From Heligmosomoides polygyrus polygyrus (lineage: Eukaryota; Nematoda; Chromadorea; Rhabditida; Heligmosomidae): a stretch of DNA of 64,000 nt. This document shows positions 1 to 64,000 of this stretch, piece after piece. The stretch spans positions 53,927,139-53,991,138 of the forward strand of contig OX377204.1 in assembly GCA_947396885.1 (NCBI GenBank), given 5' to 3'. The first letter of the stretch is position 1, and every line of letters begins with the position of its first letter. The position numbers were made by a program, and so were the translations under genes. The notes beneath the pieces were generated by a model. The model had not been told where the DNA came from and did not search any database. It was given only the letters and a program-made list of their open reading frames with translations.

Positions 1-75
1 CACGTACGCGGTGGTCCGCTAGGAGATGAAGTTCTTCGTGGACGCAATGGGCTCCATGCCTGTCGGCGGTGCTAT

Positions 76-157
76 GCAGCGATGTCCGGTTGGTTAAGGA
101 GATTGACTCGAAATAAATTGGGCTCTGCCCGCGCAGGTTCGAATCCTGCTCGCTGCG
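76..157 (+). tRNA. tRNA-Ser(CGA)-like, class E
   Basis: First complete copy. The D loop reads GGTTGG instead of GAGTGG, so A14 (partner of U8) and G15 are lost and the A box is damaged. TAAAT in place of TCAAT puts a G30:A40 mismatch in the anticodon stem. Acceptor, D stem, T stem, B box and TTTT are intact. A transcribed, charged product is doubtful. Confidence 0.65.
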
Positions 158-288
158 AATCGTTTTGCAATGGTCCGTGATGCGCAGATTGGGTGGATGG
201 GAGCTAACGAGTACACGTACGCAGTGGTCCGCTAGGAGATGAAGTTCTTCGTGGACGCAATGGGCTCCATGCCTGTCGGCGGTGCTAT
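158..288 (+). repeat. representative long spacer (131 bp)
   Basis: This is the inter-tRNA spacer of the 212-213-bp unit. It opens with the trailer AATCG-TTTT, then a variable G-rich patch (alleles: gattgggtgg, gattgggggg, gattggggtg, gattatgggg, gattatgtgg), then a conserved stretch of about 85 bp ending in ggtgctat directly before the tRNA. No ORF of its own, no A-rich or TATA-like box before the gene, and no CAA start motif close to the 5' end are evident. The spacer allele is strongly linked to the class of the tRNA that precedes it. Confidence 0.9.
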
Positions 289-370
289 GCAGCGATGTCC
301 GAGTGGTTAAGGAGATCGACTCGAAATCAATTGGGCTCTGCCCGCGCAGGTTCGAATCCCGCTCGCTGCG
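289..370 (+). tRNA. tRNA-Ser(CGA), class F
   Basis: Class F exemplar: good A and B boxes, but C29:A41 in the anticodon stem, A51:C63 in the T stem, and the trailer reads CTTT rather than TTTT. Each of the three is a T-to-C difference from the paired form. Weak termination would allow transcription toward the next unit. Confidence 0.7.
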
Positions 371-415
371 AATCGCTTTGCAATGTTCCGTGATGCGCAG
401 ATTGGGGGATGGGAG

Positions 416-447
416 CTAGCGAGTACATGTACGCGGCGGTCCGCTAG
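416..447. other. inverted repeat CTAGCG...CGCTAG in long spacer
   Basis: A 6-bp inverted repeat (416-421 with 442-447) flanks a 20-nt loop that itself can form GCGG/CCGC in most units. It recurs in every long spacer with the ctagcg allele and is broken in spacers reading ctaacg. The 58-bp spacer deletion starts within its left arm. Any function is unproven. Confidence 0.5.
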
Positions 448-500
448 GAGATGAAGTTCTTCGTGGACGCAATGGGCTCCATGCCTGTCGGCGGTGCTAT

Positions 501-582
501 GCAGCGATGTCCGAGTGGTTAAGGAGATTGACTAGAAATCAATTGGGCTCTGCCCGCGCAGGTTCGAATCCTGCTCGCTGCG
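501..582 (+). tRNA. tRNA-Ser(AGA), class B
   Basis: Fully paired copy: acceptor 7 bp, D stem TCC/GGA, anticodon stem ATTGA/TCAAT, variable arm GGGC/GCCC, T stem GCAGG/CCTGC. The anticodon loop CTAGAAA places AGA at 34-36, so with A34 to inosine it would read UCU and related serine codons. A box, B box and TTTT are intact. It differs from class A by C34A only. Confidence 0.9.
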
Positions 583-712
583 AATCGTTTTGCAATGTTC
601 CGTGATGCGCAGATTGGGGGATGGGAGCTAGCGAGTACACGTACGCGGCGGTCCGCTAGGAGATGAAGTTCTTCGTGGACGCAATGGGCTCCATGCCTGT
701 CGGCGGTGCTAT

Positions 713-794
713 GCAGCGATGTCCGAGTGGTTAAGGAGATTGACTAGAAATCAATTGGGCTCTGCCCGCGCAGGTTCGAATCCTGCTCGCTGCG
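713..794 (+). tRNA. tRNA-Ser(AGA), class B
   Basis: Fully paired, A/B boxes and TTTT intact; short spacer follows. Confidence 0.9.
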
Positions 795-866
795 AATCGT
801 TTTGCAATGTTCCATGATGCGCAGATTGGGGGATGGAAGCTGCTCCATGCCTGTCGGCGGTGCTAT
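795..866 (+). repeat. representative short spacer (72 bp)
   Basis: This short form lacks 58 bp that in the long spacer lie between the AGCT after the G-rich patch and the GCTCC before the gene-proximal segment. Both junctions share GCT, so a microhomology deletion explains it. It gives the 153-155-bp units and recurs dozens of times, usually carrying ttccatgatg and ggatggaagctgctcc. Confidence 0.88.
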
Positions 867-948
867 GCAGCGATGTCCGAGTGGTTAAGGAGATTGACTC
901 GAAATAAATTGGGCTCTGCCCGCGCAGGTTCGAATCCTGCTCGCTGCG
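867..948 (+). tRNA. tRNA-Ser(CGA), class C
   Basis: Class C exemplar: normal D loop, T stem, B box and TTTT; the sole defect is G30:A40 in the middle of the anticodon stem (TAAAT for TCAAT). Anticodon loop CTCGAAA unchanged. Confidence 0.75.
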
Positions 949-1079
949 AATCGTTTTGCAATGGTCCGTGATGCGCAGATTGGGTGGATGGGAGCTAACG
1001 AGTACACGTACGCGGTGGTCCGCTAGGAGATGAAGTTCTTCGTGGACGCAATGGGCTCCATGCCTGTCGGCGGTGCTAC

Positions 1080-1161
1080 GCAGCGATGTCCGGTTGGTTA
1101 AGGAGATTGACTCGAAATCAATTGGGCTCTGCCCGCGCAGGTTCGAATCCTGCTCGCTGCG
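1080..1161 (+). tRNA. tRNA-Ser(CGA), class D
   Basis: Class D exemplar: all stems pair and TTTT is present, but the D loop is GGTTGG, so the near-universal A14 and G15 are lost and the A box is off consensus. Preceded by gctac rather than gctat. Confidence 0.75.
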
Positions 1162-1292
1162 AATCGTTTTGCAATGGTCCGTGATGCGCAGATTGGGTGG
1201 ATGGGAGCTAACGAGTACACGTACGCGGTGGTCCGCTAGGAGATGAAGTTCTTCGTGGACGCAATGGGCTCCATGCCTGTCGGCGGTGCTAT

Positions 1293-1374
1293 GCAGCGAT
1301 GTCCGGCTGGTTAAGGAGACTGACTCGAAATCAATTGGGCTCTGCCCGCGCAGGTTCGAATCCCGCTCGCTGCG
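1293..1374 (+). tRNA. tRNA-Ser(CGA)-like, class G
   Basis: Class G exemplar: D loop GGCTGG, C28:A42 in the anticodon stem and A51:C63 in the T stem; TTTT kept. Probably a pseudogene. Confidence 0.6.
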
Positions 1375-1505
1375 AATCGTTTTGCAATGTTCCGTGATGC
1401 GCAGATTGGGGGGATGGGAGCTAGCGAGTACACGTACGCGGTGGTCCGCTAGGAGATGAAGTTCTTCGTGGACGCAATGGGCTCCATGCCTGTCGACGGT
1501 GCTAT

Positions 1506-1587
1506 GCAGCGATGTCCGGCTGGTTAAGGAGACTGACTCGAAATCAATTGGGCTCTGCCCGCGCAGGTTCGAATCCCGCTCGCTGCG
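1506..1587 (+). tRNA. tRNA-Ser(CGA)-like, class G
   Basis: GGCTGG D loop; C28:A42, A51:C63; TTTT. Leader has tgtcgacgg. Confidence 0.6.
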
Positions 1588-1718
1588 AATCGTTTTGCAA
1601 TGGTCCGTGATGCGCAGATTGGGTGGATGGGAGCTAACGAGTACACGTACGCGGTGGTCCGCTAGGAGATGAAGTTCTTCGTGGACGCAATGGGCTCCAT
1701 GCCTGTCGGCGGTGCTAT

Positions 1719-1800
1719 GTAGCGATGTCCGGTTGGTTAAGGAGATTGACTCGAAATCAATTGGGCTCTGCCCGCGCAGGTTCGAATCCCGCTCGCTGCG
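1719..1800 (+). tRNA. tRNA-Ser(CGA)-like, class D' with C2T
   Basis: Acceptor starts GTAGCGA (T2:G71 wobble); GGTTGG; A51:C63; TTTT. Confidence 0.65.
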
Positions 1801-19176: not shown

Positions 19177-19256
19177 AATCGTTTTGCAATGTTCCATGAT
19201 GCGCAAATTGGGAGGATGGAAGCTGCTCCATGCCTGTCGGCGGTGCTATGCAGCGA

Positions 19257-19267
19257 TGTCCGAGTGG
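19257..19267 (+). promoter_or_regulatory. Pol III A box of the reference copy
   Basis: TGTCCGAGTGG at tRNA positions 8-19 matches the internal A-box pattern with AGTGG. Roughly half of the array copies replace GAGTGG by GGTTGG or GGCTGG, which removes the conserved AG (A14, G15). Confidence 0.8.
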
Positions 19268-19309
19268 TTAAGGAGATTGACTCGAAATCAATTGGGCTCT
19301 GCCCGCGCA

Positions 19310-19320
19310 GGTTCGAATCC
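19310..19320 (+). promoter_or_regulatory. Pol III B box of the reference copy
   Basis: GGTTCGAATCC is a consensus B box, the main TFIIIC contact. It is unchanged in nearly all copies and in the six 3' fragments. Single-base exceptions are in the copies starting at 8754, 11865, 25111, 40849, 52594 and 53233. Confidence 0.85.
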
Positions 19321-19336
19321 TGCTCGCTGCGAATCG

Positions 19337-21997: not shown

Positions 21998-22079
21998 GCA
22001 GCGATGTCCGAGTGGTTAAGGAGATCGACTCGAAATCAATTGGGCTCTGCCCGCGCAGGTTCGAATCCCGCTCGCTGCG
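21998..22079 (+). tRNA. tRNA-Ser(CGA), class F
   Basis: C29:A41, A51:C63; CTTT. Confidence 0.7.
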
Positions 22080-24317: not shown

Positions 24318-24399
24318 GCAGCGATGTCCGAGTGGTTAAGGAGATTGACTAGAAATCAATTGGGCTCTGCCCGCGCAGGTTCGAATCCTGCTCGCTGCG
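24318..24399 (+). tRNA. tRNA-Ser(AGA), class B
   Basis: Fully paired; TTTT. Last fully paired AGA copy in the window. Confidence 0.9.
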
Positions 24400-24530
24400 A
24401 ATCGTTTTGCAATGTTCCGTGATGCGCAGATTGGGGTGATGGGAGCTAGCGAGTACACGTACGCGGTGGTCCGCTAGGAGATGAAGTTCTTCGTGGACGC
24501 AATGGGCTCCATGCCTGTCGGCGGTGCTAT

Positions 24531-24612
24531 GCAGCGATGTCCGAGTGGTTAAGGAGATTGACTCGAAATCAGTTGGGCTCTGCCCGCGCAGGTTCGAATC
24601 CTGCTCGCTGCG
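24531..24612 (+). tRNA. tRNA-Ser(CGA), class A with wobble
   Basis: As class A except A42G, giving a T28:G42 wobble; TTTT. Last near-perfect CGA copy. Confidence 0.88.
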
Positions 24613-24684
24613 AATCGTTTTGCAATGTTCCATGATGCGCAGATTGGGGGATGGAAGCTGCTCCATGCCTTTCGGCGGTGCTAT

Positions 24685-28268: not shown

Positions 28269-28399
28269 AATCGTTTTGCAATGGTCCGTGATGCGCAGAT
28301 TGGGTGGATGGGAGCTAGCGAGTACACGTACGCGGTGGTCCGCTAGGAGATGAAGTTCTTCGTGGACGCAATGGGCTCCATGCCTGTCGGCGGTGCTAT

Positions 28400-28481
28400 G
28401 CAGCGATGTCCGGCTGGTTAAGGAGACTGACTCGAAATCAATTGGGCTCTGCCCGCGCAGGTTCGAATCCCGCTCGCTGCG
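28400..28481 (+). tRNA. tRNA-Ser(CGA)-like, class G
   Basis: GGCTGG; C28:A42, A51:C63; TTTT. Confidence 0.6.
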
Positions 28482-28612
28482 AATCGTTTTGCAATGTTCC
28501 GTGATGCGCAGATTGGGTGGATGGGAGCTAACGAGTACACGTACGCGGTGGTCCGCTAGGAGATGAAGTTCTTCGTGGACGCAATGGGCTCCATGCCTGT
28601 CGGCGGTGCTAT

Positions 28613-28694
28613 GCAGCGATGTCCGGTTGGTTAAGGAGATTGACTCGAAATCAATTGGGCTCTGCCCGCGCAGGTTCGAATCCTGCTCGCTGCG
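28613..28694 (+). tRNA. tRNA-Ser(CGA), class D
   Basis: Stems paired; GGTTGG; gattatgggg spacer. Confidence 0.75.
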
Positions 28695-28825
28695 AATCGT
28701 TTTGCAATGTTCCGTGATGCGCAGATTATGGGGATGGGAGCTAGCGAGTACACGTACGCGGTGGTCCGCTAGGAGATGAAGTTCTTCGTGGACGCAATGG
28801 GCTCCATGCCTGTCGGCGGTGCTAT

Positions 28826-28907
28826 GCAGCGATGTCCGAGTGGTTAAGGAGATGGACTCGAAATCAATTGGGCTCTGCCCGCGCAGGTTCGAATCCCGCT
28901 CGCTGCG
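28826..28907 (+). tRNA. tRNA-Ser(CGA), class I
   Basis: Class I exemplar: A box intact, but G29:A41 (ATGGA/TCAAT) and A51:C63; TTTT present. Class I is seen only right of about 28 kb. Confidence 0.68.
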
Positions 28908-29038
28908 AATCGTTTTGCAATGTTCCGTGATGCGCAGATTGGGGGGATGGGAGCTAGCGAGTACACGTACGCGGTGGTCCGCTAGGAGATGAAGTTCTTC
29001 GTGGACGCAATGGGCTCCATGCCTGTCGGCGGTGCTAT

Positions 29039-29120
29039 GCAGCGATGTCCGGTTGGTTAAGGAGATTGACTCGAAATCAATTGGGCTCTGCCCGCGCAGG
29101 TTCGAATCCTGCTCGCTGCG
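29039..29120 (+). tRNA. tRNA-Ser(CGA), class D
   Basis: Stems paired; GGTTGG; TTTT. Confidence 0.75.
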
Positions 29121-29251
29121 AATCGTTTTGCAATGGTCCGTGATGCGCAGATTGGGTGGATGGGAGCTAGCGAGTACACGTACGCGGTGGTCCGCTAGGA
29201 GATGAAGTTCTTCGTGGACGCAATGGGCTCCATGCCTGTCGGCGGTGCTAT

Positions 29252-29333
29252 GCAGCGATGTCCGGCTGGTTAAGGAGACTGACTCGAAATCAATTGGGCT
29301 CTGCCCGCGCAGGTTCGAATCCCGCTCGCTGCG
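29252..29333 (+). tRNA. tRNA-Ser(CGA)-like, class G
   Basis: GGCTGG; C28:A42, A51:C63; TTTT. Confidence 0.6.
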
Positions 29334-29464
29334 AATCGTTTTGCAATGTTCCGTGATGCGCAGATTGGGGGGATGGGAGCTAGCGAGTACACGTACGCGG
29401 CGGTCCGCTAGGAGATGAAGTTCTTCGTGGACGCAATGGGCTCCATGCCTGTCGGCGGTGCTAT

Positions 29465-29546
29465 GCAGCGATGTGCGGTTGGTTAAGGAGATTGACTCGA
29501 AATAAATTGGGCTCTGCCCGCGCAGGTTCGAATCCTGCTCGCTGCG
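29465..29546 (+). tRNA. tRNA-Ser(CGA)-like, class H
   Basis: C11G, GGTTGG, G30:A40; TTTT. Confidence 0.6.
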
Positions 29547-29618
29547 AATCGTTTTGCAATGTTCCATGATGCGCAGATTGGGGGATGGAAGCTGCTCCAT
29601 GCCTGTCGGCGGTGCTAT

Positions 29619-29700
29619 GCAGCGATGTCCGAGTGGTTAAGGAGATTGACTCGAAATAAATTGGGCTCTGCCCGCGCAGGTTCGAATCCTGCTCGCTGCG
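29619..29700 (+). tRNA. tRNA-Ser(CGA), class C
   Basis: G30:A40; TTTT. Confidence 0.75.
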
Positions 29701-29831
29701 AATCGTTTTGCAATGGTCCGTGATGCGCAGATTGGGTGGATGGGAGCTAGCGAGTACACGTACGCGGTGGTCCGCTAGGAGATGAAGTTCTTCGTGGACG
29801 CAATGGGCTCCATGCCTGTCGGCGGTGCTAT

Positions 29832-29913
29832 GCAGCGATGTCCGGTTGGTTAAGGAGATTGACTCGAAATCAATTGGGCTCTGCCCGCGCAGGTTCGAAT
29901 CCTGCTCGCTGCG
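29832..29913 (+). tRNA. tRNA-Ser(CGA), class D
   Basis: Stems paired; GGTTGG; TTTT. Confidence 0.75.
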
Positions 29914-30044
29914 AATCGTTTTGCAATGTTCCGTGATGCGCAGATTATGGGGATGGGAGCTAGCGAGTACACGTACGCGGTGGTCCGCTAGGAGATGAAG
30001 TTCTTCGTGGACGCAATGGGCTCCATGCCTGTCGGCGGTGCTAT

Positions 30045-30126
30045 GCAGCGATGTCCGAGTGGTTAAGGAGATGGACTCGAAATCAATTGGGCTCTGCCCG
30101 CGCAGGTTCGAATCCCGCTCGCTGCG
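30045..30126 (+). tRNA. tRNA-Ser(CGA), class I
   Basis: G29:A41, A51:C63; TTTT. Confidence 0.68.
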
Positions 30127-30257
30127 AATCGTTTTGCAATGTTCCGTGATGCGCAGATTGGGGGGATGGGAGCTAGCGAGTACACGTACGCGGTGGTCCG
30201 CTAGGAGATGAAGTTCTTCGTGGACGCAATGGGCTCCATGCTTGTCGGCGGTGCTAT

Positions 30258-30339
30258 GCAGCGATGTCCGGTTGGTTAAGGAGATTGACTCGAAATCAAT
30301 TGGGCTCTGCCCGCGCAGGTTCGAATCCTGCTCGCTGCG
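30258..30339 (+). tRNA. tRNA-Ser(CGA), class D
   Basis: Stems paired; GGTTGG; leader catgcttgtcgg, typical after class I. Confidence 0.75.
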
Positions 30340-30470
30340 AATCGTTTTGCAATGGTCCGTGATGCGCAGATTGGGTGGATGGGAGCTAGCGAGTACACGT
30401 ACGCGGTGGTCCGCTAGGAGATGAAGTTCTTCGTGGACGCAATGGGCTCCATGCCTGTCGGCGGTGCTAT

Positions 30471-30552
30471 GCAGCGATGTCCGGCTGGTTAAGGAGACTG
30501 ACTCGAAATCAATTGGGCTCTGCCCGCGCAGGTTCGAATCCCGCTCGCTGCG
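30471..30552 (+). tRNA. tRNA-Ser(CGA)-like, class G
   Basis: GGCTGG; C28:A42, A51:C63; TTTT. Confidence 0.6.
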
Positions 30553-30683
30553 AATCGTTTTGCAATGTTCCGTGATGCGCAGATTGGGGGGATGGGAGCT
30601 AGCGAGTACACGTACGCGGCGGTCCGCTAGGAGATGAAGTTCTTCGTGGACGCAATGGGCTCCATGCCTGTCGGCGGTGCTAT

Positions 30684-30765
30684 GCAGCGATGTCCGGCTG
30701 GTTAAGGAGACTGACTCGAAATCAATTGGGCTCTGCCCGCGCAGGTTCGAATCCCGCTCGCTGCG
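30684..30765 (+). tRNA. tRNA-Ser(CGA)-like, class G
   Basis: Second of two adjacent G copies; a 155-bp step follows. Confidence 0.6.
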
Positions 30766-30838
30766 AATCGTTTTGCAATGTTCCGTGATGCGCAGATTGG
30801 GGGGATGGGAGCTGCTCCATGCCTGTCGGCGGTGCTAC

Positions 30839-30920
30839 GCAGCGATGTCCGAGTGGTTAAGGAGATTGACTCGAAATAAATTGGGCTCTGCCCGCGCAGG
30901 TTCGAATCCTGCTCGCTGCG
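30839..30920 (+). tRNA. tRNA-Ser(CGA), class C
   Basis: G30:A40; gctac leader; TTTT. Confidence 0.75.
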
Positions 30921-31051
30921 AATCGTTTTGCAATGGTCCGTGATGCGCAGATTGGGTGGATGGGAGCTAACGAGTACACGTACGCGGTGGTCCGCTAGGA
31001 GATGAAGTTCTTCGTGGACGCAATGGGCTCCATGCCTGTCGGCGGTGCTAT

Positions 31052-31133
31052 GCAGCGATGTCCGGTTGGTTAAGGAGATTGACTCGAAATCAATTGGGCT
31101 CTGCCCGCGCAGGTTCGAATCCTGCTCGCTGCG
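31052..31133 (+). tRNA. tRNA-Ser(CGA), class D
   Basis: Stems paired; GGTTGG; TTTT. Confidence 0.75.
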
Positions 31134-31264
31134 AATCGTTTTGCAATGTTCCGTGATGCGCAGATTATGGGGATGGGAGCTAGCGAGTACACGTACGCGG
31201 TGGTCCGCTAGGAGATGAAGTTCTTCGTGGACGCAATGGGCTCCATGCCTGTCGGCGGTGCTAT

Positions 31265-31346
31265 GCAGCGATGTCCGAGTGGTTAAGGAGATGGACTCGA
31301 AATCAATTGGGCTCTGCCCGCGCAGGTTCGAATCCCGCTCGCTGCG
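31265..31346 (+). tRNA. tRNA-Ser(CGA), class I
   Basis: G29:A41, A51:C63; TTTT. Confidence 0.68.
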
Positions 31347-31477
31347 AATCGTTTTGCAATGTTCCGTGATGCGCAGATTGGGGGGATGGGAGCTAGCGAG
31401 TACACGTACGCGGTGGTCCGCTAGGAGATGAAGTTCTTCGTGGACGCAATGGGCTCCATGCTTGTCGGCGGTGCTAT

Positions 31478-31559
31478 GCAGCGATGTCCGGTTGGTTAAG
31501 GAGATTGACTCGAAATCAATTGGGCTCTGCCCGCGCAGGTTCGAATCCTGCTCGCTGCG
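31478..31559 (+). tRNA. tRNA-Ser(CGA), class D
   Basis: Stems paired; GGTTGG; cttgtcgg leader. Confidence 0.75.
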
Positions 31560-31690
31560 AATCGTTTTGCAATGGTCCGTGATGCGCAGATTGGGTGGAT
31601 GGGAGCTAGCGAGTACACGTACGCGGTGGTCCGCTAGGAGATGAAGTTCTTCGTGGACGCAATGGGCTCCATGCCTGTCGGCGGTGCTAT

Positions 31691-31772
31691 GCAGCGATGT
31701 CCGGCTGGTTAAGGAGACTGACTCGAAATCAATTGGGCTCTGCCCGCGCAGGTTCGAATCCCGCTCGCTGCG
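31691..31772 (+). tRNA. tRNA-Ser(CGA)-like, class G
   Basis: GGCTGG; C28:A42, A51:C63; TTTT. Confidence 0.6.
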
Positions 31773-31883
31773 AATCGTTTTGCAATGTTCCGTGATGCGC
31801 AGATTGGGGGGATGGGAGCTAGCGAGTACACGTACGCGGCGGTCCGCTAGGAGATGAAGTTCTTCGTGGACGCAATGGGCTCC

Positions 31884-31906
31884 AGGTTCGAATCCTGCTC
31901 GCTGCG
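31884..31906 (+). pseudogene. truncated tRNA-Ser 3' half
   Basis: Only the last 23 nt of a tRNA remain (T loop, 3' T stem, acceptor 3' strand, discriminator), joined to gggctcc of a long spacer. About 79 bp (20 of leader and 59 of tRNA) are missing, with CA shared at the joint. B box and TTTT survive. Confidence 0.88.
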
Positions 31907-31978
31907 AATCGTTTTGCAATGTTCCATGATGCGCAGATTGGGGGATGGAAGCTGCTCCATGCCTGTCGGCGGTGCTAT

Positions 31979-33567: not shown

Positions 33568-33698
33568 AATCGTTTTGCAATGGTCCATGATGCGCAGATT
33601 GGGTGGATGGGAGCTAGCGAGTACACGTACGCGGTGGTCCGCTAGGAGATGAAGTTCTTCGTGGACGCAATGGGCTCCATGCCTGTCGGCGGTGCTAT

Positions 33699-33780
33699 GC
33701 AGCGATGTCCGGCTGGTTAAGGAGACTGACTCGAAATCAATTGGGCTCTGCCCGCGCAGGTTCGAATCCCGCTCGCTGCG
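33699..33780 (+). tRNA. tRNA-Ser(CGA)-like, class G
   Basis: GGCTGG; C28:A42, A51:C63; TTTT. Confidence 0.6.
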
Positions 33781-33911
33781 AATCGTTTTGCAATGTTCCG
33801 TGATGCGCAGATTGGGTGGATGGGAGCTAACGAGTACACGTACGCGGTGGTCCGCTAGGAGATGAAGTTCTTCGTGGACGCAATGGGCTCCATGCCTGTC
33901 GGCGGTGCTAT

Positions 33912-33993
33912 GCAGCGATGTCCGGTTGGTTAAGGAGATTGACTCGAAATCAATTGGGCTCTGCCCGCGCAGGTTCGAATCCTGCTCGCTGCG
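33912..33993 (+). tRNA. tRNA-Ser(CGA), class D
   Basis: Stems paired; GGTTGG; TTTT. Confidence 0.75.
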
Positions 33994-34124
33994 AATCGTT
34001 TTGCAATGTTCCGTGATGCGCAGATTATGGGGATGGGAGCTAGCGAGTACACGTACGCGGTGGTCCGCTAGGAGATGAAGTTCTTCGTGGACGCAATGGG
34101 CTCCATGCCTGTCGGCGGTGCTAT

Positions 34125-34206
34125 GCAGCGATGTCCGAGTGGTTAAGGAGATGGACTCGAAATCAATTGGGCTCTGCCCGCGCAGGTTCGAATCCCGCTC
34201 GCTGCG
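34125..34206 (+). tRNA. tRNA-Ser(CGA), class I
   Basis: G29:A41, A51:C63; TTTT. Confidence 0.68.
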
Positions 34207-34337
34207 AATCGTTTTGCAATGTTCCGTGATGCGCAGATTGGGGGGATGGGAGCTAGCGAGTACACGTACGCGGTGGTCCGCTAGGAGATGAAGTTCTTCG
34301 TGGACGCAATGGGCTCCATGCCTGTCGGCGGTGCTAT

Positions 34338-34419
34338 GCAGCGATGTCCGGTTGGTTAAGGAGATTGACTCGAAATCAATTGGGCTCTGCCCGCGCAGGT
34401 TCGAATCCTGCTCGCTGCG
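34338..34419 (+). tRNA. tRNA-Ser(CGA), class D
   Basis: Stems paired; GGTTGG; TTTT. Confidence 0.75.
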
Positions 34420-34550
34420 AATCGTTTTGCAATGGTCCGTGATGCGCAGATTGGGTGGATGGGAGCTAGCGAGTACACGTACGCGGTGGTCCGCTAGGAG
34501 ATGAAGTTCTTCGTGGACGCAATGGGCTCCATGCCTGTCGGCGGTGCTAT

Positions 34551-34632
34551 GCAGCGATGTCCGGCTGGTTAAGGAGACTGACTCGAAATCAATTGGGCTC
34601 TGCCCGCGCAGGTTCGAATCCCGCTCGCTGCG
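34551..34632 (+). tRNA. tRNA-Ser(CGA)-like, class G
   Basis: GGCTGG; C28:A42, A51:C63; TTTT. Confidence 0.6.
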
Positions 34633-34763
34633 AATCGTTTTGCAATGTTCCGTGATGCGCAGATTGGGGGGATGGGAGCTAGCGAGTACACGTACGCGGC
34701 GGTCCGCTAGGAGATGAAGTTCTTCGTGGACGCAATGGGCTCCATGCCTGTCGGCGGTGCTAT

Positions 34764-34845
34764 GCAGCGATGTGCGGTTGGTTAAGGAGATTGACTCGAA
34801 ATAAATTGGGCTCTGCCCGCGCAGGTTCGAATCCTGCTCGCTGCG
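34764..34845 (+). tRNA. tRNA-Ser(CGA)-like, class H
   Basis: C11G, GGTTGG, G30:A40; TTTT. Confidence 0.6.
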
Positions 34846-34917
34846 AATCGTTTTGCAATGTTCCATGATGCGCAGATTGGGGGATGGAAGCTGCTCCATG
34901 CCTGTCGGCGGTGCTAT

Positions 34918-34999
34918 GCAGCGATGTCCGAGTGGTTAAGGAGATTGACTCGAAATAAATTGGGCTCTGCCCGCGCAGGTTCGAATCCTGCTCGCTGCG
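34918..34999 (+). tRNA. tRNA-Ser(CGA), class C
   Basis: G30:A40; TTTT. Confidence 0.75.
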
Positions 35000-35130
35000 A
35001 ATCGTTTTGCAATGGTCCGTGATGCGCAGATTGGGTGGATGGGAGCTAGCGAGTACACGTACGCGGTGGTCCGCTAGGAGATGAAGTTCTTCGTGGACGC
35101 AATGGGCTCCATGCCTGTCGGCGGTGCTAT

Positions 35131-35212
35131 GCAGCGATGTCCGGTTGGTTAAGGAGATTGACTCGAAATCAATTGGGCTCTGCCCGCGCAGGTTCGAATC
35201 CTGCTCGCTGCG
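35131..35212 (+). tRNA. tRNA-Ser(CGA), class D
   Basis: Stems paired; GGTTGG; TTTT. Confidence 0.75.
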
Positions 35213-35343
35213 AATCGTTTTGCAATGTTCCGTGATGCGCAGATTATGGGGATGGGAGCTAGCGAGTACACGTACGCGGTGGTCCGCTAGGAGATGAAGT
35301 TCTTCGTGGACGCAATGGGCTCCATGCCTGTCGGCGGTGCTAT

Positions 35344-35425
35344 GCAGCGATGTCCGAGTGGTTAAGGAGATGGACTCGAAATCAATTGGGCTCTGCCCGC
35401 GCAGGTTCGAATCCCGCTCGCTGCG
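35344..35425 (+). tRNA. tRNA-Ser(CGA), class I
   Basis: G29:A41, A51:C63; TTTT. Confidence 0.68.
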
Positions 35426-35556
35426 AATCGTTTTGCAATGTTCCGTGATGCGCAGATTGGGGGGATGGGAGCTAGCGAGTACACGTACGCGGTGGTCCGC
35501 TAGGAGATGAAGTTCTTCGTGGACGCAATGGGCTCCATGCTTGTCGGCGGTGCTAT

Positions 35557-35638
35557 GCAGCGATGTCCGGTTGGTTAAGGAGATTGACTCGAAATCAATT
35601 GGGCTCTGCCCGCGCAGGTTCGAATCCTGCTCGCTGCG
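35557..35638 (+). tRNA. tRNA-Ser(CGA), class D
   Basis: Stems paired; GGTTGG; cttgtcgg leader. Confidence 0.75.
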
Positions 35639-35769
35639 AATCGTTTTGCAATGGTCCGTGATGCGCAGATTGGGTGGATGGGAGCTAGCGAGTACACGTA
35701 CGCGGTGGTCCGCTAGGAGATGAAGTTCTTCGTGGACGCAATGGGCTCCATGCCTGTCGGCGGTGCTAT

Positions 35770-35851
35770 GCAGCGATGTCCGGCTGGTTAAGGAGACTGA
35801 CTCGAAATCAATTGGGCTCTGCCCGCGCAGGTTCGAATCCCGCTCGCTGCG
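35770..35851 (+). tRNA. tRNA-Ser(CGA)-like, class G
   Basis: GGCTGG; C28:A42, A51:C63; TTTT. Confidence 0.6.
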
Positions 35852-35982
35852 AATCGTTTTGCAATGTTCCGTGATGCGCAGATTGGGGGGATGGGAGCTA
35901 GCGAGTACACGTACGCGGCGGTCCGCTAGGAGATGAAGTTCTTCGTGGACGCAATGGGCTCCATGCCTGTCGGCGGTGCTAT

Positions 35983-36064
35983 GCAGCGATGTCCGGCTGG
36001 TTAAGGAGACTGACTCGAAATCAATTGGGCTCTGCCCGCGCAGGTTCGAATCCCGCTCGCTGCG
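35983..36064 (+). tRNA. tRNA-Ser(CGA)-like, class G
   Basis: Twin of 30684; 155-bp step follows. Confidence 0.6.
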
Positions 36065-36137
36065 AATCGTTTTGCAATGTTCCGTGATGCGCAGATTGGG
36101 GGGATGGGAGCTGCTCCATGCCTGTCGGCGGTGCTAC

Positions 36138-36219
36138 GCAGCGATGTCCGAGTGGTTAAGGAGATTGACTCGAAATAAATTGGGCTCTGCCCGCGCAGGT
36201 TCGAATCCTGCTCGCTGCG
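36138..36219 (+). tRNA. tRNA-Ser(CGA), class C
   Basis: G30:A40; gctac leader as at 30839. Confidence 0.75.
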
Positions 36220-36350
36220 AATCGTTTTGCAATGGTCCGTGATGCGCAGATTGGGTGGATGGGAGCTAACGAGTACACGTACGCGGTGGTCCGCTAGGAG
36301 ATGAAGTTCTTCGTGGACGCAATGGGCTCCATGCCTGTCGGCGGTGCTAT

Positions 36351-36432
36351 GCAGCGATGTCCGGTTGGTTAAGGAGATTGACTCGAAATCAATTGGGCTC
36401 TGCCCGCGCAGGTTCGAATCCTGCTCGCTGCG
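36351..36432 (+). tRNA. tRNA-Ser(CGA), class D
   Basis: Stems paired; GGTTGG; TTTT. Confidence 0.75.
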
Positions 36433-36563
36433 AATCGTTTTGCAATGTTCCGTGATGCGCAGATTATGGGGATGGGAGCTAGCGAGTACACGTACGCGGT
36501 GGTCCGCTAGGAGATGAAGTTCTTCGTGGACGCAATGGGCTCCATGCCTGTCGGCGGTGCTAT

Positions 36564-36645
36564 GCAGCGATGTCCGAGTGGTTAAGGAGATGGACTCGAA
36601 ATCAATTGGGCTCTGCCCGCGCAGGTTCGAATCCCGCTCGCTGCG
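36564..36645 (+). tRNA. tRNA-Ser(CGA), class I
   Basis: G29:A41, A51:C63; TTTT. Confidence 0.68.
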
Positions 36646-36776
36646 AATCGTTTTGCAATGTTCCGTGATGCGCAGATTGGGGGGATGGGAGCTAGCGAGT
36701 ACACGTACGCGGTGGTCCGCTAGGAGATGAAGTTCTTCGTGGACGCAATGGGCTCCATGCTTGTCGGCGGTGCTAT

Positions 36777-36858
36777 GCAGCGATGTCCGGTTGGTTAAGG
36801 AGATTGACTCGAAATCAATTGGGCTCTGCCCGCGCAGGTTCGAATCCTGCTCGCTGCG
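36777..36858 (+). tRNA. tRNA-Ser(CGA), class D
   Basis: Stems paired; GGTTGG; cttgtcgg leader. Confidence 0.75.
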
Positions 36859-36989
36859 AATCGTTTTGCAATGGTCCGTGATGCGCAGATTGGGTGGATG
36901 GGAGCTAGCGAGTACACGTACGCGGTGGTCCGCTAGGAGATGAAGTTCTTCGTGGACGCAGTGGGCTCCATGCCTGTCGGCGGTGCTAT

Positions 36990-37071
36990 GCAGCGATGTC
37001 CGGCTGGTTAAGGAGACTGACTCGAAATCAATTGGGCTCTGCCCGCGCAGGTTCGAATCCCGCTCGCTGCG
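36990..37071 (+). tRNA. tRNA-Ser(CGA)-like, class G
   Basis: GGCTGG; C28:A42, A51:C63; TTTT. Confidence 0.6.
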
Positions 37072-37182
37072 AATCGTTTTGCAATGTTCCGTGATGCGCA
37101 GATTGGGGGGATGGGAGCTAGCGAGTACACGTACGCGGCGGTCCGCTAGGAGATGAAGTTCTTCGTGGACGCAATGGGCTCC

Positions 37183-37205
37183 AGGTTCGAATCCTGCTCG
37201 CTGCG
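37183..37205 (+). pseudogene. truncated tRNA-Ser 3' half
   Basis: Same joint as 31884; B box and TTTT kept. Confidence 0.88.
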
Positions 37206-37277
37206 AATCGTTTTGCAATGTTCCATGATGCGCAGATTGGGGGATGGAAGCTGCTCCATGCCTGTCGGCGGTGCTAT

Positions 37278-37359
37278 GCAGCGATGTCCGAGTGGTTAAG
37301 GAGATTGACTCGAAATAAATTGGGCTCTGCCCGCGCAGGTTCGAATCCTGCTCGCTGCG
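37278..37359 (+). tRNA. tRNA-Ser(CGA), class C
   Basis: G30:A40; TTTT. Confidence 0.75.
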
Positions 37360-37490
37360 AATCGTTTTGCAATGGTCCGTGATGCGCAGATTGGGTGGAT
37401 GGGAGCTAACGAGTACACGTACGCGGTGGTCCGCTAGGAGATGAAGTTCTTCGTGGACCCAATGGGCTCCATGCCTGTCGGCGGTGCTAT

Positions 37491-37572
37491 GCAGCGATGT
37501 CCGGTTGGTTAAGGAGATTGACTCGAAATCAATTGGGCTCTGCCCGCGCAGGTTCGAATCCTGCTCGCTGCG
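37491..37572 (+). tRNA. tRNA-Ser(CGA), class D
   Basis: Stems paired; GGTTGG; gtggaccc leader; gattatgtgg spacer allele. The expected class I unit after it is missing. Confidence 0.75.
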
Positions 37573-37703
37573 AATCGTTTTGCAATGTTCCGTGATGCGC
37601 AGATTATGTGGATGGGAGCTAGCGAGTACACGTACGCGGTGGTCCGCTAGGAGATGAAGTTCTTCGTGGACGCAATGGGCTCCATGCTTGTCGGCGGTGC
37701 TAT

Positions 37704-37785
37704 GCAGCGATGTCCGGTTGGTTAAGGAGATTGACTCGAAATCAATTGGGCTCTGCCCGCGCAGGTTCGAATCCTGCTCGCTGCG
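37704..37785 (+). tRNA. tRNA-Ser(CGA), class D
   Basis: Stems paired; GGTTGG; cttgtcgg leader. Confidence 0.75.
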
Positions 37786-37916
37786 AATCGTTTTGCAATG
37801 GTCCGTGATGCGCAGATTGGGTGGATGGGAGCTAGCGAGTACACGTACGCGGTGGTCCGCTAGGAGATGAAGTTCTTCGTGGACGCAATGGGCTCCATGC
37901 CTGTCGGCGGTGCTAT

Positions 37917-37998
37917 GCAGCGATGTCCGGCTGGTTAAGGAGACTGACTCGAAATCAATTGGGCTCTGCCCGCGCAGGTTCGAATCCCGCTCGCTGCG
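37917..37998 (+). tRNA. tRNA-Ser(CGA)-like, class G
   Basis: GGCTGG; C28:A42, A51:C63; TTTT. Confidence 0.6.
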
Positions 37999-38109
37999 AA
38001 TCGTTTTGCAATGTTCCGTGATGCGCAGATTGGGGGGATGGGAGCTAGCGAGTACACGTACGCGGCGGTCCGCTAGGAGATGAAGTTCTTCGTGGACGCA
38101 ATGGGCTCC

Positions 38110-38132
38110 AGGTTCGAATCCTGCTCGCTGCG
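38110..38132 (+). pseudogene. truncated tRNA-Ser 3' half
   Basis: Same joint as 31884. Confidence 0.88.
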
Positions 38133-38204
38133 AATCGTTTTGCAATGTTCCATGATGCGCAGATTGGGGGATGGAAGCTGCTCCATGCCTGTCGGCGGTG
38201 CTAT

Positions 38205-38286
38205 GCAGCGATGTCCGAGTGGTTAAGGAGATTGACTCGAAATAAATTGGGCTCTGCCCGCGCAGGTTCGAATCCTGCTCGCTGCG
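38205..38286 (+). tRNA. tRNA-Ser(CGA), class C
   Basis: G30:A40; TTTT. Confidence 0.75.
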
Positions 38287-38417
38287 AATCGTTTTGCAAT
38301 GGTCCGTGATGCGCAGATTGGGTGGATGGGAGCTAACGAGTACACGTACGCGGTGGTCCGCTAGGAGATGAAGTTCTTCGTGGACGCAATGGGCTCCATG
38401 CCTGTCGGCGGTGCTAT

Positions 38418-38499
38418 GCAGCGATGTCCGGTTGGTTAAGGAGATTGACTCGAAATCAATTGGGCTCTGCCCGCGCAGGTTCGAATCCTGCTCGCTGCG
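38418..38499 (+). tRNA. tRNA-Ser(CGA), class D
   Basis: Stems paired; GGTTGG; TTTT. Confidence 0.75.
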
Positions 38500-38630
38500 A
38501 ATCGTTTTGCAATGTTCCGTGATGCGCAGATTATGGGGATGGGAGCTAGCGAGTACACGTACGCGGTGGTCCGCTAGGAGATGAAGTTCTTCGTGGACGC
38601 AATGGGCTCCATGCCTGTCGGCGGTGCTAT

Positions 38631-38712
38631 GCAGCGATGTCCGAGTGGTTAAGGAGATGGACTCGAAATCAATTGGGCTCTGCCCGCGCAGGTTCGAATC
38701 CCGCTCGCTGCG
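38631..38712 (+). tRNA. tRNA-Ser(CGA), class I
   Basis: G29:A41, A51:C63; TTTT. Confidence 0.68.
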
Positions 38713-38843
38713 AATCGTTTTGCAATGTTCCGTGATGCGCAGATTGGGGGGATGGGAGCTAGCGAGTACACGTACGCGGTGGTCCGCTAGGAGATGAAGT
38801 TCTTCGTGGACGCAATGGGCTCCATGCTTGTCGGCGGTGCTAT

Positions 38844-38925
38844 GCAGCGATGTCCGGTTGGTTAAGGAGATTGACTCGAAATCAATTGGGCTCTGCCCGC
38901 GCAGGTTCGAATCCTGCTCGCTGCG
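38844..38925 (+). tRNA. tRNA-Ser(CGA), class D
   Basis: Stems paired; GGTTGG; cttgtcgg leader. Confidence 0.75.
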
Positions 38926-39056
38926 AATCGTTTTGCAATGGTCCGTGATGCGCAGATTGGGTGGATGGGAGCTAGCGAGTACACGTACGCGGTGGTCCGC
39001 TAGGAGATGAAGTTCTTCGTGGACGCAATGGGCTCCATGCCTGTCGGCGGTGCTAT

Positions 39057-39138
39057 GCAGCGATGTCCGGCTGGTTAAGGAGACTGACTCGAAATCAATT
39101 GGGCTCTGCCCGCGCAGGTTCGAATCCCGCTCGCTGCG
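39057..39138 (+). tRNA. tRNA-Ser(CGA)-like, class G
   Basis: GGCTGG; C28:A42, A51:C63; TTTT. Confidence 0.6.
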
Positions 39139-39249
39139 AATCGTTTTGCAATGTTCCGTGATGCGCAGATTGGGGGGATGGGAGCTAGCGAGTACACGTA
39201 CGCGGCGGTCCGCTAGGAGATGAAGTTCTTCGTGGACGCAATGGGCTCC

Positions 39250-39272
39250 AGGTTCGAATCCTGCTCGCTGCG
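39250..39272 (+). pseudogene. truncated tRNA-Ser 3' half
   Basis: Same joint as 31884. Confidence 0.88.
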
Positions 39273-39344
39273 AATCGTTTTGCAATGTTCCATGATGCGC
39301 AGATTGGGGGATGGAAGCTGCTCCATGCCTGTCGGCGGTGCTAT

Positions 39345-39426
39345 GCAGCGATGTCCGAGTGGTTAAGGAGATTGACTCGAAATAAATTGGGCTCTGCCCG
39401 CGCAGGTTCGAATCCTGCTCGCTGCG
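39345..39426 (+). tRNA. tRNA-Ser(CGA), class C
   Basis: G30:A40; TTTT. Confidence 0.75.
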
Positions 39427-39557
39427 AATCGTTTTGCAATGGTCCGTGATGCGCAGATTGGGTGGATGGGAGCTAACGAGTACACGTACGCGGTGGTCCG
39501 CTAGGAGATGAAGTTCTTCGTGGACCCAATGGGCTCCATGCCTGTCGGCGGTGCTAT

Positions 39558-39639
39558 GCAGCGATGTCCGAGTGGTTAAGGAGATTGACTCGAAATAAAT
39601 TGGGCTCTGCCCGCGCAGGTTCGAATCCCGCTCGCTGCG
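39558..39639 (+). tRNA. tRNA-Ser(CGA)-like, class C'
   Basis: G30:A40, A51:C63; TTTT. Confidence 0.68.
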
Positions 39640-39750
39640 AATCGTTTTGCAATGTTCCGTGATGCGCAGATTGGGGGGATGGGAGCTAACGAGTACACGT
39701 ACGCGGCGGTCCGCTAGGAGATGAAGTTCTTCGTGGACGCAATGGGCTCC

Positions 39751-39773
39751 AGGTTCGAATCCTGCTCGCTGCG
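39751..39773 (+). pseudogene. truncated tRNA-Ser 3' half
   Basis: Same joint as 31884, here after a C' copy instead of G, so the fragment has moved between modules. Confidence 0.88.
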
Positions 39774-39845
39774 AATCGTTTTGCAATGTTCCATGATGCG
39801 CAGATTGGGGGATGGAAGCTGCTCCATGCCTGTCGGCGGTGCTAT

Positions 39846-39927
39846 GCAGCGATGTCCGGTTGGTTAAGGAGATTGACTCGAAATCAATTGGGCTCTGCCC
39901 GCGCAGGTTCGAATCCTGCTCGCTGCG
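39846..39927 (+). tRNA. tRNA-Ser(CGA), class D
   Basis: Stems paired; GGTTGG; short spacers on both sides. Confidence 0.75.
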
Positions 39928-39999
39928 AATCGTTTTGCAATGTTCCATGATGCGCAGATTGGGGGATGGAAGCTGCTCCATGCCTGTCGGCGGTGCTAT

Positions 40000-47726: not shown

Positions 47727-47807
47727 GCAGCGATGTCCGGTTGGTTAAGGAGATTGACTCGAAATCAATGGGCTCTGCCCGCGCAGGTTCGAATCCTGCT
47801 CGCTGCG
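47727..47807 (+). tRNA. tRNA-Ser(CGA)-like, 81-nt class D
   Basis: One T lost at the anticodon-stem/variable-arm joint (TCAATGGGC); otherwise class D. The only full copy with an internal indel that I noticed. Confidence 0.7.
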
Positions 47808-62229: not shown

Positions 62230-62360
62230 AATCGTTTTGCAATGTTCCGTGATGCGCAGATTATGTGGATGGGAGCTAGCGAGTACACGTACGCGGTGGT
62301 CCGCTAGGAGATGAAGTTCTTCGTGGACGCAATGGGCTCCATGCCTGTCGGCGGTGCTAT

Positions 62361-62442
62361 GCAGCGATGTCCGGTTGGTTAAGGAGATTGACTCGAAATA
62401 AATTGGGCTCTGCCCGCGCAGGTTCGAATCCCGCTCGCTGCG
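62361..62442 (+). tRNA. tRNA-Ser(CGA)-like, class E'
   Basis: GGTTGG, G30:A40, A51:C63; TTTT. Confidence 0.6.
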
Positions 62443-62573
62443 AATCGTTTTGCAATGTTCCGTGATGCGCAGATTGGGGGGATGGGAGCTAGCGAGTACA
62501 CGTACGCGGTGGTCCGCTAGGAGATGAAGTTCTTCGTGGACGCAATGGGCTCCTTGCCTGTCGGCGGTGCTAT

Positions 62574-62655
62574 GCAGCGATGTCCGAGTGGTTAAGGAGA
62601 TCGACTCGAAATCAATTGGGCTCTGCCCGCGCAGGTTCGAATCCCGCTCGCTGCG
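62574..62655 (+). tRNA. tRNA-Ser(CGA), class F
   Basis: C29:A41, A51:C63; CTTT; leader gctccttgcc. Confidence 0.7.
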
Positions 62656-62785
62656 AATCGCTTTGCAATGTTCCATGATGCGCAGATTGGGGGATGGGAG
62701 CTAGCGAGTACACGTACGCGGTGGTCCGCTAGGAGATGAAGTTCTTCGTGGACGCAATGGGCTCCATGCCTGTGGGCGGTGCTAT

Positions 62786-62867
62786 GCAGCGATGTGCGGT
62801 TGGTTAAGGAGATTGACTCGAAATAAATTGGGCTCTGCCCGCGCAGGTTCGAATCCTGCTCGCTGCG
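62786..62867 (+). tRNA. tRNA-Ser(CGA)-like, class H
   Basis: C11G, GGTTGG, G30:A40; leader gtgggcgg. Confidence 0.6.
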
Positions 62868-62939
62868 AATCGTTTTGCAATGTTCCATGATGCGCAGATT
62901 GGGGGATGGAAGCTGCTCCATGCCTGTCGGCGGTGCTAT

Positions 62940-63021
62940 GCAGCGATGTCCGAGTGGTTAAGGAGATTGACTCGAAATAAATTGGGCTCTGCCCGCGCAG
63001 GTTCGAATCCTGCTCGCTGCG
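62940..63021 (+). tRNA. tRNA-Ser(CGA), class C
   Basis: G30:A40; TTTT. Confidence 0.75.
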
Positions 63022-63152
63022 AATCGTTTTGCAATGGTCCGTGATGCGCAGATTGGGTGGATGGGAGCTAACGAGTACACGTACGCGGTGGTCCGCTAGG
63101 AGATGAAGTTCTTCGTGGACGCAATGGGCTCCATGCCTGTCGGCGGTGCTAT

Positions 63153-63234
63153 GCAGCGATGTCCGGTTGGTTAAGGAGATTGACTCGAAATCAATTGGGC
63201 TCTGCCCGCGCAGGTTCGAATCCTGCTCGCTGCG
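63153..63234 (+). tRNA. tRNA-Ser(CGA), class D
   Basis: Stems paired; GGTTGG; trailer AATCATTTT, shared only with 52228. Confidence 0.75.
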
Positions 63235-63364
63235 AATCATTTTGCAATGTTCCGTGATGCGCAGATTGGGGGATGGGAGCTAGCGAGTACACGTACGCGG
63301 TGGTCCGCTAGGAGATGAAGTTCTTCGTGGACGCAATGGGCTCCATGCCTGTGGGCGGTGCTAT

Positions 63365-63446
63365 GCAGCGATGTGCGGTTGGTTAAGGAGATTGACTCGA
63401 AATAAATTGGGCTCTGCCCGCGCAGGTTCGAATCCTGCTCGCTGCG
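63365..63446 (+). tRNA. tRNA-Ser(CGA)-like, class H
   Basis: C11G, GGTTGG, G30:A40; leader gtgggcgg. Confidence 0.6.
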
Positions 63447-63518
63447 AATCGTTTTGCAATGTTCCATGATGCGCAGATTGGGGGATGGAAGCTGCTCCAT
63501 GCCTGTCGGCGGTGCTAT

Positions 63519-63600
63519 GCAGCGATGTCCGAGTGGTTAAGGAGATTGACTCGAAATAAATTGGGCTCTGCCCGCGCAGGTTCGAATCCTGCTCGCTGCG
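63519..63600 (+). tRNA. tRNA-Ser(CGA), class C
   Basis: G30:A40; TTTT. Confidence 0.75.
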
Positions 63601-63731
63601 AATCGTTTTGCAATGGTCCGTGATGCGCAGATTGGGTGGATGGGAGCTAACGAGTACACGTACGCGGTGGTCCGCTAGGAGATGAAGTTCTTCGTGGACG
63701 CAATGGGCTCCATGCCTGTCGGCGGTGCTAT

Positions 63732-63813
63732 GCAGCGATGTCCGGTTGGTTAAGGAGATTGACTCGAAATCAATTGGGCTCTGCCCGCGCAGGTTCGAAT
63801 CCTGCTCGCTGCG
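63732..63813 (+). tRNA. tRNA-Ser(CGA), class D
   Basis: Stems paired; GGTTGG; gattatgtgg spacer. Confidence 0.75.
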
Positions 63814-63944
63814 AATCGTTTTGCAATGTTCCGTGATGCGCAGATTATGTGGATGGGAGCTAGCGAGTACACGTACGCGGTGGTCCGCTAGGAGATGAAG
63901 TTCTTCGTGGACGCAATGGGCTCCATGCCTGTCGGCGGTGCTAT

Positions 63945-64000
63945 GCAGCGATGTCCGGTTGGTTAAGGAGATTGACTCGAAATAAATTGGGCTCTGCCCG
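63945..64000 (+). tRNA. tRNA-Ser(CGA)-like, class E, cut by window edge
   Basis: First 56 nt only; GGTTGG and TAAAT (G30:A40) visible. The array continues beyond the window. Confidence 0.65.

Follow-up and report, generated by a model that had tools for sequence, protein, structure and literature searches.

Structure of the tRNA-Ser array

The window analyzed here is a stretch of 64,000 bp (positions 53927139–53991138) of contig OX377204.1, a 103.4-Mb contig (C52; coordinates given in Mb without a contig name refer to it) of an assembly that encompasses 656,174,362 bases in 1130 contigs. From position 1 to 64000 it is occupied by part of a tandem array of serine transfer RNA (tRNA-Ser) genes on the plus strand. 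ARAGORN predicted 314 tRNA-Ser genes, all on the plus strand and spanning positions 75 to 63814, and a fuzzy anchor search yielded 315 copies, the last of which starts at 63945 and is interrupted by the right edge of the window. The 314 anchor-to-anchor steps measure 213 bp (n = 208), 154 bp (n = 51), 212 bp (n = 37), 155 bp (n = 7), 288 bp (n = 6), 211 bp (n = 4), and 210 bp (n = 1), which bears out an earlier, sequence-only reading of about 315 copies in a single orientation with near-regular 213/154-bp steps. The order of elements, as read directly, is tRNA, TTTT, a spacer of ~130 bp, and the next tRNA. In the 154-bp short units (for example 713–866, plus strand) 59 bp of the spacer are absent, and the composite units behind the six 288-bp steps (for example 31691–31978, plus strand) carry an additional 3′ tRNA fragment. 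The window contains 102 different units and no N, and the G + C content of the tRNAs is 57.7%, that of the spacers 55.7%. Its longest exact repeat, with 3373 bp at 28289–31661 (plus strand) and a second copy at 33588–36960, represents block-wise amplification.

Searches with Rfam models gave 312 matches to the tRNA family RF00005 (110 + 100 + 102; one was split by a search-range boundary at 22001) with scores of 32.1–61.7 bits, the gathering score being 29 bits, and no other family reached its cut-off in the window. Two plastid untranslated region families on the minus strand were rejected, as they scored far under their cut-offs and overlie the tRNA. The periods detected by Tandem Repeats Finder (TRF) in the window correspond only to the unit or multiples of it (150 of 161 rows). 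A layout of the Entamoeba type, with several different tRNA genes per unit and short tandem repeats between them, was not encountered in the window, and reading of the window unit revealed no 3′ tail like that of a tRNA-derived short interspersed nuclear element (SINE), i.e. a non-tRNA part terminated by an A-rich or simple repeat. With regard to a SINE-type dispersal, the copies are arranged head-to-tail in the window and in all 27 array stretches sampled outside it, and a single exact copy of the gene, on contig C27, precedes the C52 array among the matches listed.

No other genes were found in the window, in agreement with the sequence-only reading. All 46 open reading frames of at least 90 amino acids belong to the minus strand, where they read the repeat in antisense (213 = 3 × 71). 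An open frame of 1326 amino acids antisense to the array at 36001–39981 (minus strand) exists because 213 bp equal 71 codons and is a trap for automatic annotation. A homology search with the frame at 24349–24666 gave 13 weak matches among 106 candidates (E-values 3.0e-5 to 9.7e-4), which were taken, from the match list, for antisense tRNA matches; protein-coding genes in the window were rejected. Exact spacer and tRNA patterns had 0 matches in viral contigs, 0 in genome contigs, and none in plasmids, and in a phage search parts of the query showed 81% identity to seven cyanophage records. A viral, phage, plasmid, or prokaryotic origin was rejected on these searches.

Intact and damaged copies in the window

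The anticodons of the 314 complete copies are CGA (n = 284) and AGA (n = 30). The earlier claim of one tRNA species holds at the level of the isotype, which is serine throughout, but not below it, since two isoacceptors (CGA and AGA) are present and the tRNAs, compared as 84-nt slices, fall into 44 different sequences. The CGA anticodon reads UCG, and AGA is expected to be edited to IGA, which reads UCU, UCC, and UCA. A copy was scored as structurally intact if it had 24 stem pairs, the bases T8, A14, R15, G18, T33, T63, T64, C65, and A68 (numbered along the 82-nt gene), and a TTTT not more than 14 nt behind the gene. The nine bases are conserved in tRNAs. Only 26 of the 314 copies (21 AGA, 5 CGA), confined to positions 501–24612, were intact. 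The most frequent kinds of damage were loss of A14 (156 copies), an A-C mismatch at pair 60-72 (119 copies), and a G-A mismatch at pair 30-40 (112 copies); TTTT follows within 14 nt in 267 of the 314 copies and is replaced by CTTT in the remaining 47. The copy at 47727, in which one base is missing, is out of register and consequently fails many pairs; it was scored as damaged.

An intact tRNA-Ser(AGA) gene with a score of 60.4 bits is located at 501–582 (plus strand), followed by a TTTT of the RNA polymerase III (Pol III) terminator type at 588–591 (plus strand); its exact 82-nt sequence is found at 951 places in the assembly (744 on the forward and 207 on the reverse strand). The top-scoring type in the window, an intact tRNA-Ser(CGA) with 61.7 bits, is found at 19250–19331 (plus strand), and this exact sequence occurs 632 times in the assembly (521 + 111). 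Among the damaged types, a common one (867–948, plus strand; 51.7 bits) carries C40A, which disrupts pair 30-40 of the anticodon stem. A second common type (1080–1161, plus strand; 54.8 bits) has good stems and a change of A14/R15 in the box A/D-loop core to G14 T15. In a further type (289–370, plus strand; 50.0 bits) pairs of the anticodon and T stems are broken and CTTT stands in place of TTTT. Folding of six copies with ViennaRNA separated intact from damaged types poorly and was set aside.

Variable sites amounted to 24 of 82 in the tRNA and 42 of 131 in the spacer (Fisher p = 0.76), and sites with rare alleles to 12 of 82 and 30 of 131, respectively (p = 0.16), based on 308 of the 314 units after exclusion of the six 288-bp units. 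Within the window, the tRNA is conserved no better than its spacer. An automatic annotation would list hundreds of “tRNA genes” here, most of them probably non-functional.

Extent and copy number beyond the window

Thirty-eight further stretches of C52 were retrieved outside the window. All 27 stretches between 53.2 and 54.225 Mb consisted of the tRNA-Ser array in plus orientation without any N, and no array was present in the 11 stretches sampled at 52.0, 52.8, and 54.26–56.5 Mb. In four pattern searches, the earliest C52 positions among the matches listed were 53,095,504, 53,095,590, 53,096,568, and 53,097,212, and the listed exact copies fill the region from 53.096 to 53.335 Mb; as all listed pattern matches are exact, more diverged copies may extend beyond this on the left side, without reaching the stretch at 52.80 Mb. 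By sampling, the array thus runs from ~53.095 Mb to 54.225–54.260 Mb, i.e. over about 1.13–1.16 Mb (the samples alone set a ceiling of 1.46 Mb). The sequence-only reading, which had described an uninterrupted single-isotype array extending past both edges, was correct in this respect and had guessed too low on the size. Three stretches flanking the array (L034, L035, and L039) contain frames that resemble, by eye, a mariner transposase, a retroelement polyprotein (with a gap of 200 N), and the endonuclease of a long interspersed nuclear element.

With 1421 copies in 289 kb of N-free sequence (4.92 copies per kb), the array is expected to hold ~5,500 copies. A 45-nt pattern covering tRNA and trailer matched 5193 times on the forward and 462 times on the reverse strand of the whole assembly when up to three mismatches were allowed (5,655 in total; reversed control, 0). 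Only two of the 1097 copies in the 27 stretches outside the window deviate in their anticodon (CGG in one, TGA in the other). Members of the family on the reverse strand were found genome-wide with each pattern (313 spacer, 462 tRNA/trailer, 207 exact AGA, and 111 exact CGA matches); they may represent either an inverted block or another locus, and only one place with such copies is among the matches listed. This place, C27:94147177–94147258 (minus strand), contains an exact copy of the intact tRNA-Ser(CGA) of the array and is the only exact one before C52 among the matches listed. The C27 copy is possibly the ancestral gene or a backup gene.

Distribution of intact copies along the array

Intactness varies strongly along the array. 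In total, 214 of 1389 copies were intact over 33 stretches, six of which are 10-kb pieces of the window, and the 27 stretches outside the window accounted for 188 of 1097. The intact copies are concentrated at 53.777–53.787 Mb (stretch L013; 46 of 46), 53.700 Mb (19 of 23), and 53.740 Mb (18 of 23), and are lacking at 53.847, 53.867, and 53.877 Mb (0 of 50, 0 of 51, and 0 of 51, respectively). When the three mostly intact stretches were pooled, the tRNA had 9 variable sites of 81 vs. 34 of 130 in the spacer (p = 0.008, in a post hoc test that omits site 34 and the short units). The odds ratio of tRNA to spacer was 0.58 (p = 0.08) and 0.74 (p = 0.42) in two groups on the left, and ranged from 1.07 to 2.34 in five groups to the right of 53.82 Mb.

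The tRNA diversity of the three intact stretches (0.006–0.009) is about three to eight times lower than that at 53.827–54.051 Mb and in the window (0.028–0.044). Their spacer diversity is 0.023–0.035 vs. 0.018–0.025 in the same comparison stretches, and is higher still (up to 0.080) in the left flank and some stretches at the right end. Since spacer diversity in the intact stretches is not reduced relative to 53.827–54.051 Mb and the window, mere recency does not explain the uniformity of their tRNAs.

A second array and spliced-leader sequences

The assembly contains a second large tRNA array on contig C39. The stretches C39:54275000–54284999 (L019) and C39:54480000–54489999 (L020) consist of 196-bp units that carry tRNA-Lys(TTT) and are oriented along the minus strand. 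For the first 10 kb ARAGORN predicted 33 tRNA-Lys(TTT) genes plus two with the anticodon TTA, for the second 30 tRNA-Lys(TTT) genes, and TRF counted 50 units in the first stretch. In a tRNA family search on C39, matches from 54.279 to 54.672 Mb were among those listed (63 scored of 79,215 candidates). The tRNA-Lys array thus probably has a size of about 0.4 Mb.

The SL1 spliced leader followed by GTAA was found 1582 times in the assembly with at most one mismatch (881 + 701), whereas the reversed control gave 0 matches, and the host was therefore taken for a nematode. An oomycete or plant host, initially considered on account of the tRNA and the published oomycete arrays (PMC9584435), was rejected on the basis of this result. 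Six SL1 matches spaced ~200 bp apart at C1:3439104–3440140 (G000) form a short spliced-leader array.

Relation to known tRNA arrays

The closest described counterparts are the “VeCTRs” of Nippostrongylus brasiliensis, in which tRNA-Ser is present in ~90 copies separated by a species-specific spacer of 80 bp and a tRNA-Trp unit of ~200 bp is repeated nearly 150 times (PMC5765664). By description, the arrays of this strongylid nematode and the array analyzed here are alike in being head-to-tail repeats of one tRNA gene and a short spacer, but those of N. brasiliensis have, by arithmetic, sizes of ~15 and 30 kb as compared to ~1.13–1.16 Mb (PMC5765664). The available text of that account contains no analysis of intact vs. 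damaged copies (PMC5765664). In the oomycete Phytophthora infestans, a 513-nt unit with tRNA-Cys is present 271 times and further arrays have been described, with copy numbers backed by read depth (PMC9584435). These, too, are large single-isotype arrays on one chromosome, some of which mix anticodons of one amino acid, but they are smaller (~139 kb by arithmetic for tRNA-Cys), and the monomeric single-chromosome arrays among them are nearly identical with rare variants often near the edge (PMC9584435), whereas most copies in our window are damaged.

A core rich in the major intact type, surrounded by variable flanks with minor types and pseudogenes, is known from the SYY cluster of Arabidopsis, which is transcribed in root-tip cells (PMC12308677). 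This cluster consists of Ser-Tyr-Tyr repeats with two isotypes in 27 units (PMC12652284) and is far smaller than the array on C52. Cluster sizes in plant surveys reach 110 genes (PMC12652284), and a cluster of 28 tRNA-Ile genes is known from maize (PMC11700998). Zebrafish resembles our genome in the thousands of tRNA genes that its repetitive clusters contain, and its egg isodecoders stem from repetitive regions; these clusters comprise many isotypes, especially on the long arm of chromosome 4, and are not a single-isotype satellite (PMC11417395). In Entamoeba, nearly all tRNA genes are organized in tandem arrays (PMC2652664), whereas a single isotype is repeated here. For Heligmosomoides polygyrus, the assembly ngHelPoly1.1 has six chromosomes (PMC10682056); the main text of this genome paper contains 0 occurrences of words beginning with “trna” (PMC10682056), and the available text of PMC13173282 and PMC9071541 does not mention tRNA.

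The array had been called exceptional in the sequence-only reading. Its size is about eight times that of the largest single-isotype tRNA array found described in the open-access literature (~139 kb, P. infestans), but this view overlooks that single-isotype arrays as such have been published for a nematode and an oomycete (PMC5765664; PMC9584435). The kind of array is thus already known, and what is new within the open-access literature is the size and the mostly intact part inside a decayed animal array. With most copies in the window damaged and some perfect, it is an unusually large case of a known but little-understood kind of array.

Probable origin and maintenance of the array

The array is probably a tRNA satellite that has been shaped by unequal crossover and includes a maintained functional part, with the window lying in a decayed flank. 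A nematode tRNA-Ser gene with ~130 bp of flanking sequence would have been amplified head-to-tail to the present ~1.13–1.16 Mb, and unequal crossing-over and gene conversion would grow, shrink, and homogenize the array. Selection for serine tRNA may keep one part of it intact while the other copies decay. Pol III transcripts, directed by the internal boxes A and B and a TTTT stop, would originate mainly from intact copies; that the genes are transcribed by Pol III is suggested by their type and by the TTTT stops behind them. The copies in the window may no longer be maintained as genes and would drift as a satellite. The sampled stretches have one orientation, anticodons are interleaved, exact repeats occur block-wise, and a mostly intact part lies near the middle of the array. 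The identity of the intact CGA sequence to the C27 gene also speaks for a maintained part.

Several observations weigh against this interpretation. The intact part was picked by its intactness and then tested, a procedure that is post hoc and partly circular, and the correlation of −0.75 across the 33 stretches between the proportion of intact copies and the diversity ratio of tRNA to spacer is partly circular too, intactness itself limiting tRNA diversity. Ten groups were compared, so that p = 0.008 becomes ~0.08 after Bonferroni correction, and the units are related and not independent. The region at 53.827–53.887 Mb is nominally significant in the opposite direction (22 of 81 sites in the tRNA vs. 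18 of 131 in the spacer; p = 0.019), and a second, weaker rise in intact copies occurs at 54.071 Mb (23 of 50). The stretches of the left flank (53.2–53.655 Mb) have ratios of 0.49–0.91 despite only 13–35% intact copies, and the ratio is also below 1 in the right-hand stretches at 54.091 and 54.220 Mb; the maintained part therefore has no sharp border. In 23 of the 25 stretches to the right of 53.82 Mb, including the window, the tRNA is even more diverse than its own spacer (up to 2.39), an excess that is not accounted for by simple neutrality and of which transcription-associated mutation is one possible cause. Finally, the 462 reverse-strand matches to the tRNA/trailer pattern lie outside the matches listed.

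Of the three options offered by the sequence-only reading, the tRNA-derived satellite fits the window with its 26 intact copies out of 314 and a tRNA that is conserved no better than the spacer. If the array were a selfish satellite and nothing else, spread by crossing-over and functionless throughout, the intact copies would simply be the youngest. The neutrality of the window by site counts agrees with this, as do the spacer-deleted units, composite units, and block duplications, which are typical of satellites. Such a purely selfish origin is nevertheless rather unlikely, as the intact stretches combine low tRNA diversity with spacers no less diverse than those at 53.827–54.051 Mb and in the window, and the intact CGA gene is identical to the C27 copy; the argument from diversity is weakened by the even higher values, up to 0.080, of spacers in the left flank and some right-end stretches. 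At the other extreme, an amplification of the whole array for codon supply, in which thousands of copies would all be useful, for example for translation in the germ line or in secretion, has precedents in the repetitive clusters that feed zebrafish eggs and early embryos (PMC11417395) and in root-tip cells of Arabidopsis (PMC12308677). The assembly-wide total of 1,583 exact matches to the intact 82-nt genes (951 AGA and 632 CGA, counted without terminators) and the array part with intact, less variable tRNAs are in line with it. It is unlikely for the array as a whole, since 288 of the 314 window copies fail at least one of the intactness criteria, the window tRNA is conserved no better than the spacer, and only 214 of 1389 copies over 33 stretches are intact; a functional supply of serine tRNA finds support, post hoc, for the part at 53.70–53.79 Mb.

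An expansion of a few true units by the assembler is very improbable. If the assembly is ngHelPoly1.1, its reads derive from PCR-amplified DNA sheared to ~10 kb and its contig N50 is 291.5 kb, and if C52 is the X chromosome, the authors call the contig order in its centre (X:42–60 Mb) uncertain (PMC10682056); the array between the samples may also contain gaps. However, the window alone holds 102 unit types, its longest exact repeat (3373 bp) is shorter than ~10-kb reads, 289 kb of array are free of N, the same assembly contains a second, unrelated tRNA-Lys array, and tRNA arrays from long reads have been published for another nematode (PMC5765664). The third option, a structural chromatin element such as a heterochromatic or insulating block, has the least probability and would hardly be expected. 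The position near the middle of the 103.4-Mb contig, which is shared by the tRNA-Lys array on the 111.5-Mb C39, and a unit length near 200 bp would suit such a block, and the authors of the P. infestans study speculated similarly (PMC9584435), but in the intact part the tRNA varies less than the spacer, which argues for gene function, and nematodes are described as holocentric (PMC5765664).

The tRNA satellite with a maintained part may, as a tentative and rather doubtful extension, be one member of a group of very large tRNA satellites in this genome, each confined to one isotype (Ser, and Lys(UUU) on C39). Each would be a self-renewing gene factory in which crossing-over continually regenerates a selected intact core, whose bulk expression would fall in a single stage (the germ line or early embryo being the simplest case), and damaged copies are shed into the flanks, where they persist as a chromatin-forming satellite. 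If true, this would be a distinct mode of multigene-family maintenance, between ribosomal DNA and satellite DNA. As intact and damaged copies of one gene occur with alignable spacers in one place, the balance of selection and crossing-over in a tandem family is directly measurable here, and the array bears on the question why some nematodes have thousands of tRNA genes.

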